Assembly: GCA_026393455.1 (NCBI GenBank)
Contig: JAPLAE010000101.1
Span: forward strand, 1 to 64,000
DNA from: Actinomycetota bacterium
GTDB taxonomy: Bacteria; Actinomycetota; Acidimicrobiia; Acidimicrobiales; Acidimicrobilacustridaceae
Direction of reading: 5' to 3'
DNA: 64,000 nucleotides
Of the stretch, positions 9,598 to 20,900 are shown piece by piece. The notes under the pieces are model-generated. The model was given only the letters and a program-made list of their open reading frames with translations. It was not told the DNA's origin and made no database searches. A program made the position numbers and the translations under genes. How positions within the stretch are numbered: position 1 is the stretch's first letter; every line of letters begins with the position of its first letter.

Positions 9598-9633
9598 ATG
9601 CGTTCTATTGCTTTGGAGCTTCTACTTCGTTAG
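9598..9633 (+). CDS. leuL: Leucine attenuator leader peptide MRSIALELLLR
   Basis: atg cgt tct att gct ttg gag ctt cta ctt cgt tag; 4 of 11 codons are Leu, three in a row, directly followed by tandem hairpins and then leuA. Confidence 0.75.
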   Translation: MRSIALELLLR

Positions 9634-9692
9634 GCGGGTGCCACATATGGCGCCTGCCAACCTCCTGCGCCCTCGGGCCGGGAGGTTTTTTC
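9633..9692 (+). promoter_or_regulatory. leuA transcription attenuator (pause hairpin plus terminator hairpin)
   Basis: Hairpin 1: GGCGGGTGCC-acatat-GGCGCCTGCC (9633-9658, two G-T pairs). Terminator: AACCTCC...GCCC-tc-GGGC...GGAGGTT followed by Ts (9659-9692). GGCGC (9649-9653) can pair with GCGCC (9667-9671) as a candidate antiterminator. Confidence 0.7.
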
Positions 9693-9753
9693 GTTCTCCG
9701 GCCAGTTTCTGTTTGTTCCCCGAGCTACACCACATGCCCTGAAAGGCACCTTT

Positions 9754-11335: not shown

Positions 11336-11932
11336 TCAGCGATTCGTTGCCGGCATCCACGCCGGTCGAGTGGCCTCAAAGGCCGCGATCGCATCGACGT
11401 GCTGAAGTGTGATGGCGATGTCATCGAGGCCATTCAGGAATCGTTCTTGGGTAGAATTGTCGAGCGGAAACTCCACGTCGATATCGAGCGAAGCAACGAC
11501 AACGCGCTTGGTGGCGATGTCGATGGTGATTTCAACGGTCGGGTCGGCTTCAACGGCACGCAGGATGCGCTCGCTTACGTCGGCGGGGAGCACGACGGGG
11601 ACGAGTCCGTTCTTGGCAGAGTTATTGCGGAAGATGTCGCCGAAGCGAGGAGCGATGACGGCTTTGAAGCCGTAATCCATGATCGACCACACGGCGTGTT
11701 CTCGAGATGAACCCACGCCGAAGTTGGCCCCGGCAACAAGGATGTTGGCCTCGCCAAACTGCGGAAGGTTCATGACGAACTCGGGATCTTCACGCCACTC
11801 TGAAAAGAGCCCCTGGCCAAAGCCAGTGCGTTCGACGCGCTTGAGCCAATCGCTCGGGATGATCTGATCAGTGTCGACGTCAGATCGGTCGAGGGGGAGT
11901 GCGGTTCCGGTGATGGTGATGACTGGTTCCAT
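11336..11932 (-). CDS. leuD: 3-isopropylmalate dehydratase small subunit
   Basis: MEPVITITGTALPLDRSDVDTDQIIPSDWLKRVERTGFGQGLF, GANFGVGSSREHAVW. Confidence 0.94.
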   Translation of the reverse strand: MEPVITITGTALPLDRSDVDTDQIIPSDWLKRVERTGFGQGLFSEWREDPEFVMNLPQFGEANILVAGANFGVGSSREHAVWSIMDYGFKAVIAPRFGDIFRNNSAKNGLVPVVLPADVSERILRAVEADPTVEITIDIATKRVVVASLDIDVEFPLDNSTQERFLNGLDDIAITLQHVDAIAAFEATRPAWMPATNR

Positions 11933-11948
11933 GATGTGCTCAGTTCTC

Positions 11949-13352
11949 TCAGGCCAGATCGCGAGGATCGGCGAAGGTTCCGGCAATTGCGGTTGCAGCA
12001 GCGACAGCGGGGGAGACGAGGTGAGTACGGCCACCCTTGCCCTGTCGTCCTTCGAAATTGCGGTTCGAGGTTGATGCCGAACGCTCACCCGGCGCCAACT
12101 TGTCGGGGTTCATGGCGAGACACATGGAACAACCCGGTTCACGCCAGTCGAATCCGGCCGCGGTGAAAATCTTGTCGAGGCCCTCGGCTTCGGCTTGACC
12201 CTTCACCATGAATGAACCCGGTACGACCATGGCCCGCACTCCGGCCGCAACCTGACGACCTTCGGCAACCGCAGCTGCGGCACGAAGATCCTCGATGCGA
12301 CTGTTGGTGCACGAACCGATGAACACGGTCTGCACAGGAATGTCTTTGATCGGCATGCCAGCGGTGAGGCCCATGTACTCAAGGGCGCGAGATGCAGCAT
12401 CGCGTTCTCCGGAATCGGCGAACGATGCCGGATCGGGCACATTGCTATCGAGCTCGATGACCTGACCAGGATTGGTTCCCCATGAAACGAAGGGACGAAG
12501 TTTTGTGGCGTCGATGTCGACAACCTTGTCGAATACGGCACCGTCATCGGTGGGGAGTGTGCGCCAGTACGCAACAGCAGCGTCCCAGTCGGCACCAGTC
12601 GGTGCGTACTTGCGATCCTTGAGGTAGTCGAAGGTGATTTCGTCGGGAGCAATGAGGCCAGCTTTGGCACCTGCTTCGATCGACATGTTGCACACCGTCA
12701 TGCGGCCTTCCATCGACAGCGAACGGATCGCTTCGCCGCGATATTCGATAACCGAACCGATGCCACCTCCGGTGCCGATACGACCGATGATGGCCAGCAC
12801 GAGATCTTTGGCGGTGACGCCGTCGGGAAGTGCACCGTTCACGTTCACTGCCATGGTTGAAGCTGGATGCTGGGGGAGTGTCTGGGTGGCCATGACATGT
12901 TCAACTTCAGAAGTACCGATGCCGAAGGCCAGCGCGCCGAACGCGCCGTGCGTAGCTGTGTGGCTGTCGCCGCACACGATGGTCATGCCCGGCATGGTCA
13001 GACCTTGTTCCGGTCCGATCACATGCACGATGCCTTGACCGGGAGTACCCATGGCGTGTTCGACAATGCCGAACTCGGCAGTATTGGCCCGCAACACATC
13101 AACCTGTTTGCGCGAGATCGGATCGGCGATGGGTTGGTCGATATCGGAAGTGGGGACGTTATGGTCCTCGGTGGCAACGGTGAGTTCAGGTCGCCGAACA
13201 GTTCGGTCACTCAGACGCAAACCGTCGAAGGCCTGTGGCGAGGTCACTTCGTGCACGAGGTGGAGATCGATGTAGAGCACGTCGGGCTCGCCGTCGGCGC
13301 GATGTACGACGTGATCGTCCCAAAGTTTTTGCGAAAGGGTTCTCGGGGCCAT
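11949..13352 (-). CDS. leuC: 3-isopropylmalate dehydratase large subunit
   Basis: [73 protein letters not shown]. Confidence 0.95.
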
Positions 13353-13417
13353 GTTCTGCTCCTGTTCGGGAGGTTGGCCGGCACTGACAATGACGTGAGT
13401 TCCGGACGGCGCCGTTT

Positions 13418-13438
13418 GCGTCTCATATAATGGGACGC
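13418..13438. promoter_or_regulatory. Palindromic operator between leuC and the divergent IclR gene
   Basis: GCGTCTCAT-ATA-ATGGGACGC; 9-bp arms with one mismatch, in the shared intergenic region. Confidence 0.6.
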
Positions 13439-13450
13439 TAATCTTGCTCC

Positions 13451-14119
13451 GTGGGAAACACTATAGGTGGTGTGGGTGTTTTAGACAAGGCGGTTGACGT
13501 GCTCAACGCGCTCGAAGTCCGCTCGTTGTCGCTGTCGGAACTCGTTGGGGTGACGGGACTGCCTCGGGCGACTGCTCATCGTCTTGCGACGGCGCTTGAA
13601 CGCCATGGTCTTGTTCGGCGCGACGTCGATGGTCGATTCATGCTCGGGACCCGATTGCTTTCTCTGGGACAGGCGGCGGCGGACGCATGGCCCCTCGCTA
13701 CTGCGGCGGCATCTGCCCTTGCGATTCTGCGAGATGAAACTGGTGAGAGCGTGCAGCTGTTTGTTCGCGACGGCGAGGAGCGTGTGTGTATTGCTGCTTT
13801 GCAGTCGCTGCACGGATTACGCACGATCGTGCCACTGGGTGCCCGGCTTCCACTCTCTGCAGGATCAGCAGCTCGTGTCTTGACGAGTGCCGATCAAACG
13901 GCAGGGGAGTGGATCGAGAGTGTGGGCGAGCGCGAGGCCGGGGTGGCGTCTGTTTCCGCTCCGGTGCGAGACGCGTCGGGTCGAGTGGTCGCTGCGGTGA
14001 GTGTGTCGGGGCCGATTGAGAGAACTTCTCGACAGCCAGGTAAGCGGTACGGTTCCTTTGTGGTCCGTGCAGCGAGAGAGATCGAATCAGAAGCTGGTTT
14101 GCGGGGCGTCGACGCGTGA
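13451..14119 (+). CDS. IclR family transcriptional regulator (NdgR/LtbR-like by context)
   Basis: [50 protein letters not shown] (IclR HTH) plus effector domain; divergent from leuCD. Confidence 0.85.
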
Positions 14120-16645: not shown

Positions 16646-17110
16646 TCAGGCTTCGATGCTGACGATCTCAACCTTGAGGACGCCACCGGGGGCTTCAAAG
16701 TCGACGATGTCGCCGACCTTGTTTCCCATGAGGGCCCGTCCCAAAGGTGAGCCTGGGGTGAGGACTTCAAGTTCCGCGCGTTCTTCAACGGAGCCGACCA
16801 GAAGTCGCTCAACCTCGTCGTCACCTTCGTAGCGGATGCCGACGATCACGCCTGAGACCACGGCGGATCCATCGGCGGCTTCGACGATTTCGGCGTCGAG
16901 GAGTAGTGCCTCGAGTTGGCGGATTCGGGCTTCCATCTTGCCCTGTTCCTCTCTCGCGGCGTGGTAGTCGCCGTTCTCAGAGAGATCGCCCATTTCACGG
17001 GCAGTCTGAATTTTGCGGGCAATATCGACTCGACCGTGGGTCGTGTGCTGCTCGTGTTCAGCGCTCAACCGGTCGTAGGTCTGTTGGGTGAATCGGTGTA
17101 CGACAGCCAT
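16646..17110 (-). CDS. greA: Transcription elongation factor GreA
   Basis: LSAEHEQ...ARKIQTAREMGDLSENGDYHAAREEQGKMEARIRQLEALL; GSPLGRALMGNKVGDIV. Confidence 0.94.
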   Translation of the reverse strand: MAVVHRFTQQTYDRLSAEHEQHTTHGRVDIARKIQTAREMGDLSENGDYHAAREEQGKMEARIRQLEALLLDAEIVEAADGSAVVSGVIVGIRYEGDDEVERLLVGSVEERAELEVLTPGSPLGRALMGNKVGDIVDFEAPGGVLKVEIVSIEA

Positions 17111-17182
17111 GTCGCTAGCGTACCGGCCCTTCGTGGAACTCGCCTAGGGCGGCGGGAGGGGGTCGGACTAGAGTGATGAGCC

Positions 17183-17233
17183 ATGTCCACACCGAGCCCA
17201 CACCGTTCGCGCTCCATCGTGATCATTCGCTAG
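17183..17233 (+). CDS. Ile/Val attenuator leader peptide MSTPSPHRSRSIVIIR
   Basis: atg tcc aca ccg agc cca cac cgt tcg cgc tcc atc gtg atc att cgc tag; a run of I-V-I-I just before the stop, followed by two strong hairpins and leuB. Confidence 0.75.
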   Translation: MSTPSPHRSRSIVIIR

Positions 17234-17290
17234 CGCACACCGAGTTCGGTGTGCGCCCTCGGCCGTCCACCCCGGTGGGCGGCTTTCTCG
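17233..17290 (+). promoter_or_regulatory. leuB-ilvE-cimA attenuator: pause hairpin plus terminator hairpin
   Basis: GCGCACACCGA-gt-TCGGTGTGCGC (17233-17256), then GCCGTCCACC-cc-GGTGGGCGGC followed by TTTCTCGTT (17262-17290). Confidence 0.7.
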
Positions 17291-17357
17291 TTCCAGCACA
17301 GGGCCTGTCCCTTTCCCGGCATTGCACTCTTCAGCACAGCAACCAATCGGAGTCATC

Positions 17358-18338
17358 GTGAGTCACAGAATCGGAGTTATCCCCGGAGACGGGATTGGGC
17401 ACGAGGTCATTCCCGTCGCCCTCAAGGTCATCGGTGCTGCGGGCGTCGAGCTCGACTGTGTTGACTACGACCTCGGTGGCGCTCGCTACCTGCGTGACGG
17501 CGTCGTTCTTGACGATGCGACGGTCGAAGAATGGCGCGGACTCGATGCTCTTTTGCTCGGTGCAGTCGGGACGCCAGATGTTCCGCCAGGTGTCATCGAG
17601 CGTGGCCTTCTTCTCAAGATGCGTTTTGATCTCGACCTCTATATCAATCAGCGTCCGTTCATTGCCCCCGACGGGTCACATGATTTCATCGTGATCCGCG
17701 AGAACACTGAAGGCACCTACGCGGGCGAAGGTGGCTTCCTTCGCAAAAACACGCGGTTCGAAGTCGCGACGCAGGGTTCGGTAAATACCCGGCACGGCGT
17801 TGAACGTTGTGTTCGCTATGCCTTCGAACTTGCACGCAGCCGTGATCGCAAGCACCTCACTCTCGTTCATAAGACCAATGTTCTGACGTTTGCTGGCGAT
17901 CTCTGGGAGCGCACCTTCAATGAAGTTGCCGCGGAATTCCCCGATGTTTCGACGGCTTACAACCATGTCGATGCTGCTTGCATCTACTTCGTTGAAGATC
18001 CGAAGCGATACGACGTTATTGTCACCGACAACCTGTTCGGCGACATCCTCACCGATCTCGGTGGAGCGGTCTCCGGTGGGATTGGGTTCGCCTCGTCGGG
18101 CAATCTCAATCCAGATCGAACGAGCCCTTCGATGTTTGAACCAGTTCATGGTTCAGCTCCTGATATTGCTGGGCAAAACAAAGCCAATCCCGTCGCTGCG
18201 ATTCTCTCAGCTGCGATGATGCTCGAATTCCTTGGTGAAGAAGCGGCAGCAACGACAATCCGCAATGCGTGTTCCGACACCGCCACCCTCACCGGTTCAA
18301 CCACCGAAATCGGCGACATTGTCGTCGCTCGTCTCTGA
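17358..18338 (+). CDS. leuB: 3-isopropylmalate dehydrogenase
   Basis: VSHRIGVIPGDGIGHEVIPVALKVI, ENTEGTYAGEGG, HGSAPDIAGQNKANP; GTG start at 17358. Confidence 0.93.
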   Translation: MSHRIGVIPGDGIGHEVIPVALKVIGAAGVELDCVDYDLGGARYLRDGVVLDDATVEEWRGLDALLLGAVGTPDVPPGVIERGLLLKMRFDLDLYINQRPFIAPDGSHDFIVIRENTEGTYAGEGGFLRKNTRFEVATQGSVNTRHGVERCVRYAFELARSRDRKHLTLVHKTNVLTFAGDLWERTFNEVAAEFPDVSTAYNHVDAACIYFVEDPKRYDVIVTDNLFGDILTDLGGAVSGGIGFASSGNLNPDRTSPSMFEPVHGSAPDIAGQNKANPVAAILSAAMMLEFLGEEAAATTIRNACSDTATLTGSTTEIGDIVVARL

Positions 18339-18349
18339 GAGGCAATGCA

Positions 18350-19267
18350 ATGCCAATTACACCTACGAACAAGATTTGGATGAACGGAACGCTCGTCAAT
18401 TGGGACGACGCGAAGATCCACGTCCTCACCCACACCCTTCATTACGGAACGGGTGTCTTCGAAGGAATCCGCGCGTATGAAACCCCAAAGGGTCCTGCGG
18501 TGTTCCGGCTTACCGAACACATTGAGCGCTTACACAATTCAGCGAAGATCCTCGGCATGGACATGCCCTATGGCGTCGATGAGTTGGTCCAGGCCACGAA
18601 GGACGTCGTCAAAGCATCGGGACTTCCTTCTGCCTACATCCGTCCGATCGCCTATTACGGCTACGGCGAAATGGGACTGAACACGCTTCCGTGCTCGGTC
18701 GATGTTTCGATTGCTTGCTGGCCATGGGGCGCGTACCTCGGTGAAGATGCGCTCACGAAGGGGATCAGCACAAAGATTTCTTCGTGGACCCGTCACGATC
18801 ACAACACCATGCCGCCGGCTTCGAAAACCACGGGCAACTACGTGAACTCTTCGCTGGCCAAAGTCGAAGCGCTCCGAGGTGGATACGACGAAGCGATCAT
18901 GCTTAACCCGCAGGGTTTCGTCAGCGAATGCACGGGCGAAAATATTTTCGTTGCGCGCGACGGCGTCTTGGTGACGCCGCCGATTGCGGCTGGCGCGCTC
19001 GAAGGAATCACTCAAGACAGCGTGATGACGATTGGTCGAGACCTTGGTTATGAGTTCCGCGTCGATTACCTGACGCGCTCTGACCTCTATGTCGCCGAAG
19101 AGATCTTTCTGTGTGGAACCGCTGCTGAGGTTTCGGCTGTGAATTCAGTCGATAATCGCGATATCCCGTGCCCCGGTCCGATGACGTCTGTCATCGCTGC
19201 TGAATATGGACGCGTTGTGCGCGGTCAGGTTCCCCGTTACGAGGACTGGTTGGAGTATGTCCACTAA
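18350..19267 (+). CDS. ilvE: Branched-chain amino acid aminotransferase
   Basis: KIWMNGTLVNWDDAKIHVLTHTLHYGTGVFEGIRAYETPKGPAVFRLTEHIERL, ECTGENIFVARDG. Confidence 0.93.
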   Translation: MPITPTNKIWMNGTLVNWDDAKIHVLTHTLHYGTGVFEGIRAYETPKGPAVFRLTEHIERLHNSAKILGMDMPYGVDELVQATKDVVKASGLPSAYIRPIAYYGYGEMGLNTLPCSVDVSIACWPWGAYLGEDALTKGISTKISSWTRHDHNTMPPASKTTGNYVNSSLAKVEALRGGYDEAIMLNPQGFVSECTGENIFVARDGVLVTPPIAAGALEGITQDSVMTIGRDLGYEFRVDYLTRSDLYVAEEIFLCGTAAEVSAVNSVDNRDIPCPGPMTSVIAAEYGRVVRGQVPRYEDWLEYVH

Positions 19268-20900
19268 CAACGGCGCCAAAACTGAGCTCTCATCGCTTCC
19301 ATCCTCGGTCGAGATTTTCGATACGACTTTGCGCGATGGCGCCCAGTTCGAAGGCATCTCACTCACCGTTGAAGACAAGCTTCGCGTTGCCGAGCAGCTC
19401 GATTGGCTTGGCGTTCGCTGGATCGAAGGGGGCTACCCCCAGGCCAATCCGAAAGACGAGGAGTTCTTCCAGCGCGCCCCGCTTGAACTCAAGCTCACAA
19501 ATGCCGAACTCGTGGCATTCGGTTCCACACGCAGGCCCGCAGGGAAGGTCGATGTTGACCCAACCTTGGCGGCTCTCGTTGGTGCCGGAACTTCGACAGT
19601 TTGCATCGTGGGTAAGAGTTGGGATTTCCATGTCACCGAGGCCTTACGAACGACGCTCGATGAAGGCATTGCGATGGTTGCCGAATCGGTTGCTTTTTTA
19701 AAGGCCGAAGGATTGCGCGTCTTTTTTGATGCTGAACATTTCTTCGATGGTTACAAAGCCAATCCTGAATTCGCGCTTCGAGTTCTCGAGGCAGCCATGG
19801 TCAACGGCGCCGATTGTGTGGTGTTATGCGATACCAACGGGGGGTCACTCCCGCACGAGGTTCAGCGCGTCACCGCCGAAGTCGTTTCTTTTGTTGGCGG
19901 CGCAACGGGCGTGGGCATTCACACTCAAAATGATTCTGGCTGCGCTGTAGCAAATTCTGTAGCGGCGGTTGTTGGTGGAGCTACACAGGTGCAGGGCACC
20001 ATCAACGGCTACGGCGAGCGCACGGGTAATGCAAACCTCATGACCGTCATTCCCGACCTCACGCTCAAACTCGGAGTGGCGACACTGCCTGAGGGGCACC
20101 TCGATCGACTCACCGTTGTGAGTCACCGCGTTGCGGAACTCGTCAACCTCCCGCCGCATCCCTCTGACCCATATGTTGGACAGTCTGCCTTTGCGCACAA
20201 GGGTGGCTTGCATACTTCGGCGCTAGGCCGCGCGGGCGGAGCGACCTACGAACACATCGATCCGGCAATTGTGGGCAACCACACTCGGGTACTCGTATCT
20301 GACCTCGGCGGGCGCGCTGGCATGGCCATGAAAGCCGACGAATTTGGCGTCGAACTTGACGATAAGTCCGTTGCCAAGCTGTCTGACGACCTGAAGCAAC
20401 TCGAGTCGGAAGGCTGGTTGTTTGAATCGGCCGACGCGTCTCTTGAACTTCGTATGCGCCGAGCCGCTGGTTGGGAACAAGCATTTTTCGAGGTTGAGGA
20501 ATATCGAGTTTCGAGTTCACACCGCGAAGGTGCTGCCACAACTGGCGGTGCCCTCGAGGTCACGACCGAAGCAACGGTCATACTCTGGATTGACGGCGAA
20601 CGAGTCACCGCCGATGGTGAGGGGAATGGCCCCGTCAATGCACTCGATGCCGCAGTTCGTCGAGCGCTCAACGGACGGTTCCCTGCGCTTGAACGAATTC
20701 ATCTGACCGATTTCAAGGTTCGCGTCGTCGATGGTGGCGCTGCGACCGGAGCGGTGGTGCGCGTGCTCATCGATTCCACCAACGGCGACCGCGTCTGGAC
20801 GACCGTAGGAGTCGATAGCAACGTGATTGAGGCCTCATGGCAGGCGCTCATGGACTCCATTCAGTTTGGTTTGGTCCACGCTGACGATCTTGCCGGGTAG
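19257..20900 (+). CDS. cimA: (R)-citramalate synthase
   Basis: VEIFDTTLRDGAQFEGISLTVEDKLRVAEQLDWLGVRWIEGGYPQANPKDEEFF; overlaps the ilvE stop by 11 nt. Confidence 0.9.
   Translation: MSTNNGAKTELSSLPSSVEIFDTTLRDGAQFEGISLTVEDKLRVAEQLDWLGVRWIEGGYPQANPKDEEFFQRAPLELKLTNAELVAFGSTRRPAGKVDVDPTLAALVGAGTSTVCIVGKSWDFHVTEALRTTLDEGIAMVAESVAFLKAEGLRVFFDAEHFFDGYKANPEFALRVLEAAMVNGADCVVLCDTNGGSLPHEVQRVTAEVVSFVGGATGVGIHTQNDSGCAVANSVAAVVGGATQVQGTINGYGERTGNANLMTVIPDLTLKLGVATLPEGHLDRLTVVSHRVAELVNLPPHPSDPYVGQSAFAHKGGLHTSALGRAGGATYEHIDPAIVGNHTRVLVSDLGGRAGMAMKADEFGVELDDKSVAKLSDDLKQLESEGWLFESADASLELRMRRAAGWEQAFFEVEEYRVSSSHREGAATTGGALEVTTEATVILWIDGERVTADGEGNGPVNALDAAVRRALNGRFPALERIHLTDFKVRVVDGGAATGAVVRVLIDSTNGDRVWTTVGVDSNVIEASWQALMDSIQFGLVHADDLAG

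Follow-up and report, generated by a model that had tools for sequence, protein, structure and literature searches.

A putative isoleucine- and valine-coded leader-peptide attenuator upstream of leuB-ilvE-cimA in the order Acidimicrobiales

The locus examined here raises the question of why an operon whose first gene is leuB should be preceded by a leader that codes for isoleucine and valine, and which amino acid that operon serves. In the 64,000-nucleotide stretch of actinomycetotal DNA that was analysed (the window), leuB, encoding 3-isopropylmalate dehydrogenase (17358-18338, plus strand, GTG start; NF002898, 479.8 bits against a cut-off of 393), is followed by ilvE, encoding a branched-chain aminotransferase (18350-19267, plus strand; TIGR01122, 403.9 bits against 245.6), and cimA, encoding citramalate synthase (19257-20900, plus strand; TIGR00977, 666.6 bits against 450). 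The gap between leuB and ilvE is 11 nt, and cimA overlaps the end of ilvE by 11 nt. On the other side of the leader, a divergent ORF (16646-17110, minus strand) is greA-like in appearance.

The leader ORF, MSTPSPHRSRSIVIIR, spans 16 codons on the plus strand (17183-17233, with its ATG at 17183 and TAG at 17231-17233) and, as originally predicted, ends in Ile-Val-Ile-Ile-Arg-stop. Its control codons, at positions -5 to -2 relative to the stop (ATC GTG ATC ATT, 17216-17227, plus strand), include no leucine, and they lie about 140 nt upstream of leuB with a terminator in between and no run of leucine codons. Among the 3143 stop codons on both strands of the window, only one is preceded by Ile or Val at all four of these positions, and it is the leader's own. 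A short upstream ORF with consecutive branched-chain amino acid (BCAA) codons near its stop is characteristic of the ilvB-type attenuators of actinobacteria, and a leader peptide rich in codons for the end product of the operon, here Ile and Val, is likewise found in trp-type attenuators.

A probable -10 box, TAGAGT (17169-17174, plus strand), lies 8 nt upstream of the leader ATG; it is not accompanied by a consensus -35, and no consensus promoter was called in the window at the leader. In relatives, TACACT-like boxes occur mostly 7-9 nt upstream of the leader ATG or GTG, often with TTGAC about 17 nt further upstream, and no consistent Shine-Dalgarno sequence was seen in the regions upstream of the leaders. 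Based on this distance between box and start codon, the leuB transcript probably starts at or adjacent to the leader start codon, and the leader ORF itself would be leaderless. A precedent is the ilvBNC operon of C. glutamicum, for which a study cited in PMC4046766 reports leader peptide formation without a ribosome binding site.

Folding of the leader region recovered the two hairpins that had been expected, with a z-score of -3.4 and none of 200 shuffled sequences equally stable. Hairpin 1 (17233-17256, plus strand) pairs 17233-17242 with 17247-17256 and begins within the stop codon; it is present where it was predicted, immediately after the ORF, with a stem of 10 bp rather than the 11 bp proposed. 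It shows covariation in an alignment of 46 leaders, with changes on both sides in 5 of its 7 consensus pairs. The second hairpin and its U-rich tail (17261-17292, plus strand) form an intrinsic terminator in which 17261-17270 pairs with 17275-17284 over 10 bp, followed by TTTCTCGTT and then leuB, in agreement with the original prediction. It is the only terminator-like site in 17090-17400, where 0.1 were expected, and is also part of the covariance model of these leaders. A hairpin and U-tracted intrinsic terminator between an upstream ORF and a BCAA gene is again the arrangement of ilvB-type attenuators. Rfam covariance models for leaders, riboswitches and T-boxes gave no match at the site, either at gathering thresholds or at E <= 5.

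To assess conservation, LeuB was searched in 60 relatives, with upstream regions read in the sense direction, and the resulting leaders were combined with 30 of the loci listed when the GTDB genome collection was scanned with a sequence pattern, giving 46 non-redundant leuB leaders. Among the 79 listed matching loci of that scan that were examined, 30 lay directly upstream of leuB and 49 did not; those of the latter that were displayed appeared chance-like, with the exception of L137, which has a leader ending in Ile-Ile-Ile-Val. Since the first 46 leaders were selected via the terminator core, the invariance of that core stems in part from the pattern used and carries no evidential weight.

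Conservation of the leader in related genomes is far above chance. A TAG stop codon at the base of hairpin 1 is present in all 46 leaders, and the spacing is likewise fixed. Ile occupies position -2 in 45 of the 46. Further from the stop, 34 leaders carry Ile or Val at -3, 45 carry Ile, Ala or Val at -4, and 40 carry Val or Ile at -5; position -1 is free to vary and encodes a BCAA in just 6. Over positions -5 to -2, in frame, 53% of the codons are Ile, 29% Val and 1% Leu, and these residues hardly occur in the other two frames. The comparison of leuB leaders among relatives thus bears out the proposed Ile/Val coding, in one frame only, and the exclusion of leucine from the control stretch. Moreover, in these GC-rich genomes the leaders prefer codons that are rare in the leuB coding sequence: ATT accounts for 32 of the 45 Ile codons at -2, compared to 26 among 505 ATT and ATC codons in the downstream leuB genes, and GTA for 29/54 in leaders compared to 20/945 in leuB. 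This preference may sharpen sensing or keep the ribosome's track unstructured. Four genomes of the same genus (G008, G011, G012 and G013; loci L016-L019) have leuB with a TAGGAT box at a similar place and no leader ORF, hairpin 1 or terminator, implying that the attenuator can be lost within a genus.

Across four gene classes the control codons match the pathway that the downstream gene serves. The covariance model of leuB leaders found matches in 204 genomes out of 297, and in 135 of the order's 174 genera, and 79 matches sorted by downstream gene preceded leuB (37), ilvB (32) or cimA (10), with every classified match upstream of one of the three. Collections of leuA, ilvB and cimA leaders were also assembled by gene, independently of the covariance model and the terminator-core selection. 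Since a high BCAA content close to a stop was the selection criterion, the choice among Leu, Val and Ile in these collections is informative and BCAA richness itself is not, and their codon composition was derived from peptide tails entered by hand. All 19 leuA leaders checked end in Leu-Leu-Leu-x-stop, and Leu makes up 78% of their control codons, compared to 1% in leuB leaders; the window carries such a Leu-coded leuA attenuator, separate from the leuB operon (9598-9695, plus strand), in which MRSIALELLLR-stop (9598-9633) is followed by a hairpin and a terminator. Leaders of ilvB were found in 24/26 cases and mostly read Leu-Val-Val-(Leu/Val/Ile)-x-stop, with some irregular. For cimA, a separate leader was found in 12 cases, with three or four Ile codons preceding the final codon.

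In none of the 10 genomes checked in which cimA carries a separate leader does leuB have a credible BCAA leader (four low-scoring candidates were seen, none of this architecture), and in G281 and G208 the gene order is leuB-ilvE-leader-cimA. Because leuB is left without a leader in such genomes, and given the gene order in these two, the leader is tied to the citramalate/isoleucine function and not to leuB itself. The prediction that the leader codons disclose the physiological role of the operon is therefore supported, in that Ile/Val coding is conserved, the leader tracks cimA, and it then becomes Ile-only. Elsewhere in the phylum, further families and classes also have ilvB, leuB and cimA leaders.

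Two observations on ilvB leaders were made along the way. In the window's own genome, the ilvB leader (L031, contig C43, minus strand, about 3366-3270) reads SLVVLR and continues with TAT CCC, in place of the TAG CAC of same-genus leaders; its stop appears to have been lost, with the frame continuing towards ilvB, and this could be an assembly error. In family f66, from another part of the phylum, LVLIT-type leaders (L397, L398, L406, L407 and L409) lie approximately 420-470 nt upstream of the ilvB match, a gap that fits another small gene or a long leader.

The pathway context is consistent with an isoleucine function. The isoleucine precursor 2-oxobutyrate can be supplied via the CimA route. 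In four same-genus draft genomes that are 98-100% complete (G002, G013, G018 and G019), no protein scored above cut-off for threonine deaminase (ilvA) with two models (cut-offs 379 and 441), the best scores being about 60 bits, while G042, G045 and G047 exceeded the cut-off for one or both models. The absence of a recognizable threonine deaminase from near-complete genomes of the genus suggests that CimA is the likely route to 2-oxobutyrate, and hence to isoleucine, in these organisms. A leader that places Ile first agrees with this, and, together with the association between leader and cimA, it favors the original proposal of an operon for threonine-independent isoleucine synthesis. Within the window, leuCD lies in 11336-14119 on the minus strand, divergent from a gene whose product resembles, by eye, an IclR-family regulator (13451-14119); given this arrangement LeuCD, which both the leucine and the citramalate routes need, would seem to be under control other than that of the leuB leader.

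The sequence itself shows the ORF with its codon specificity, both hairpins, the order of the genes and the match to the pathway. On this basis the element is very probably a leader-peptide transcription attenuator that controls leuB-ilvE-cimA by sensing charged tRNA-Ile and, as a second input, tRNA-Val. We infer premature termination, and the direction in which the operon responds, as follows. Transcription would start at or beside the leader ATG, and a ribosome would load on the leaderless 5' end. With sufficient Ile and Val, the ribosome would reach the TAG and mask hairpin 1 on its 5' side, and RNA polymerase would terminate some 60 nt downstream. Under a shortage of Ile (or Val), the ribosome would stall 2-5 codons short of the stop, letting more polymerases through the terminator, so that readthrough would yield more LeuB, IlvE and CimA and thereby isoleucine via the citramalate route.

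No competing antiterminator pairing is detectable by which a stalled ribosome would defeat the terminator. The last step might involve weak, transient pairing between strands 2 and 3, or hairpin 1 might interfere directly with the terminator. In a trp-type switch, the stalled ribosome would occupy strand 1 (17233-17242), and strand 2 (17247-17256) would pair with strand 3 (17261-17270), excluding the terminator. With strand 1 masked and strand 4 still to be made, the own-genus sequence folds best into a 2:3 structure of about -10 kcal/mol, and a 5-bp 2:3 helix is possible in 97% of alignment cells. However, the columns holding those 5 bp are nearly invariant, in part owing to how the sequences were selected, and so offer no covariation. 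Furthermore, no 2:3 antiterminator was detectable by masked folding, constrained alignment folding, duplex energies against shuffles or pair counts. In leuB leaders, the mean 2:3 energy is -7.2 kcal/mol compared to -8.1 for shuffled strands (z +0.37, i.e., weaker), and the pairing is no better than shuffled strands in any of the four classes (leuB, ilvB, cimA and leuA). Since 2:3 pairing is no stronger than in shuffled strands, the final step expected of a textbook attenuator cannot be seen in these leaders. With constrained folding of the whole alignment, the terminator is the best full-length structure in both ribosome states, beating 2:3, with exceptions in masked folding of single examples, such as L063. 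Judged by eye, neither a helix between strands 1 and 4 nor one between the last codon and strand 3 is common to the classes. The antiterminator that is mutually exclusive with the terminator in trp-type systems is thus not in evidence, and we regard such a switch as possible but doubtful. Of the attenuator originally proposed, the codon-coded leader and the terminator stand; the textbook antiterminator implied by the term is not supported.

It is also conceivable, though we consider it unlikely, that no alternative pairing is involved and that hairpin 1, left free under a stalled ribosome, hinders closure of the terminator in the RNA polymerase exit channel. By its usual footprint, a ribosome waiting at codon -2 would extend about 6 nt into hairpin 1, and at the stop it would cover the whole 5' arm. 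A ribosome stalled at -5 to -2 would leave most of hairpin 1 free to fold, while one at the stop would mask its 5' arm and allow the terminator to close. The geometry favors such abutment: the control codon is at -2 and rarely at -1 (6/46), the stop is fixed at the base of hairpin 1, and the hairpins nearly abut in all four classes, with a median gap of 0-2.5 nt (range 0-5 nt), compared to 4 nt in the window. If true, one architecture with interchangeable codons (LLL, LVV, VxII or IIII) would serve every BCAA branch.

Explanations other than sensing of charged tRNA fit the data poorly. The leader is short and conserved in its C-terminal part, as an arrest peptide sensing a metabolite in the ribosome tunnel would be, but which residues are conserved (LLL, LVVL, VxII, IIII) depends on the pathway, and the remainder of the peptide varies, as codon sensing expects, making an arrest peptide very unlikely. 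A response to leucine, as leuB would suggest, finds single Leu codons in a few relatives in its favor (VVLIP in L014 and VILIS in L091); given the scarcity of leucine among leuB control codons relative to leuA leaders, and given that leuB without cimA carries no such leader, it is highly improbable. That a constitutive terminator merely adjoins a chance short ORF, with no regulation at all, is scarcely credible given that the leader is conserved across the order, is coded in one frame, prefers rare codons and matches the pathway.

Several actinobacterial ilvB and leuA leaders are already known (PMC1262725, PMC10272879, PMC4046766 and PMC13236596). The leuB leader resembles the ilvB(NC) attenuators of M. 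tuberculosis (ilvB1; PMC13236596), Corynebacterium (the ilvB-II motif; PMC10272879), and Streptomyces and Mycobacterium (PMC1262725) in its BCAA-coded short ORF, hairpin and U-tract terminator, and ilvB leaders are recovered by the leuB-leader covariance model. Unlike them, it targets leuB-ilvE-cimA or cimA, lacks Leu codons, has Ile at -2, and places its stop inside hairpin 1 with the two hairpins nearly abutting; moreover, the ilvB papers propose an antiterminator, whereas none is detectable here. For M. tuberculosis ilvB1, changing LVVI to AAAA abolished induction, and a ribosome at the stop was proposed to mask the antiterminator, which a stall at LVVI lets form (PMC13236596). These data support the class and the direction of response rather than the exact structure of the leuB leader. 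Control-codon changes in the S. coelicolor ilvB leader, in work cited in PMC1262725 and as summarized there, were reported to be without effect, which counts against a codon-sensing attenuator at leuB. Actinobacterial leuA leaders (C. glutamicum cg0303, PMC4046766; the LEU element, PMC1262725) likewise place a BCAA-coded upstream ORF before a leucine-pathway gene, but the LEU element is described as a pseudoknot in which a run of Leu codons pairs with the leuA Shine-Dalgarno box, whereas the leuB leader has a terminator and no Leu run. As in the enterobacterial trp and ilvGMEDA attenuators, a leader peptide rich in end-product codons and an intrinsic terminator precede the first gene; in contrast with these, the leuB leader has no detectable antiterminator, its ORF is probably leaderless, and its control codons lie before hairpin 1 rather than inside it. 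Because the antiterminator test failed, we do not assign it to the trp type and file it instead with the actinobacterial BCAA leader-peptide attenuators of the ilvB type.

In the open-access literature, no report relevant by title or abstract was found on an attenuator for citramalate synthase, for leuB in connection with isoleucine, or in Acidimicrobiia, and within that literature this is apparently the first such element to be reported for a citramalate-pathway operon. The four natural variants of one attenuator provide material on how a terminator may be defeated without a visible antiterminator. Leader codons can also be read as functional annotation: within one order, Leu-only, Leu/Val/Ile, Ile/Val and Ile-only leaders name the branch served, even for leuB and cimA, which belong to enzyme families common to several branches.
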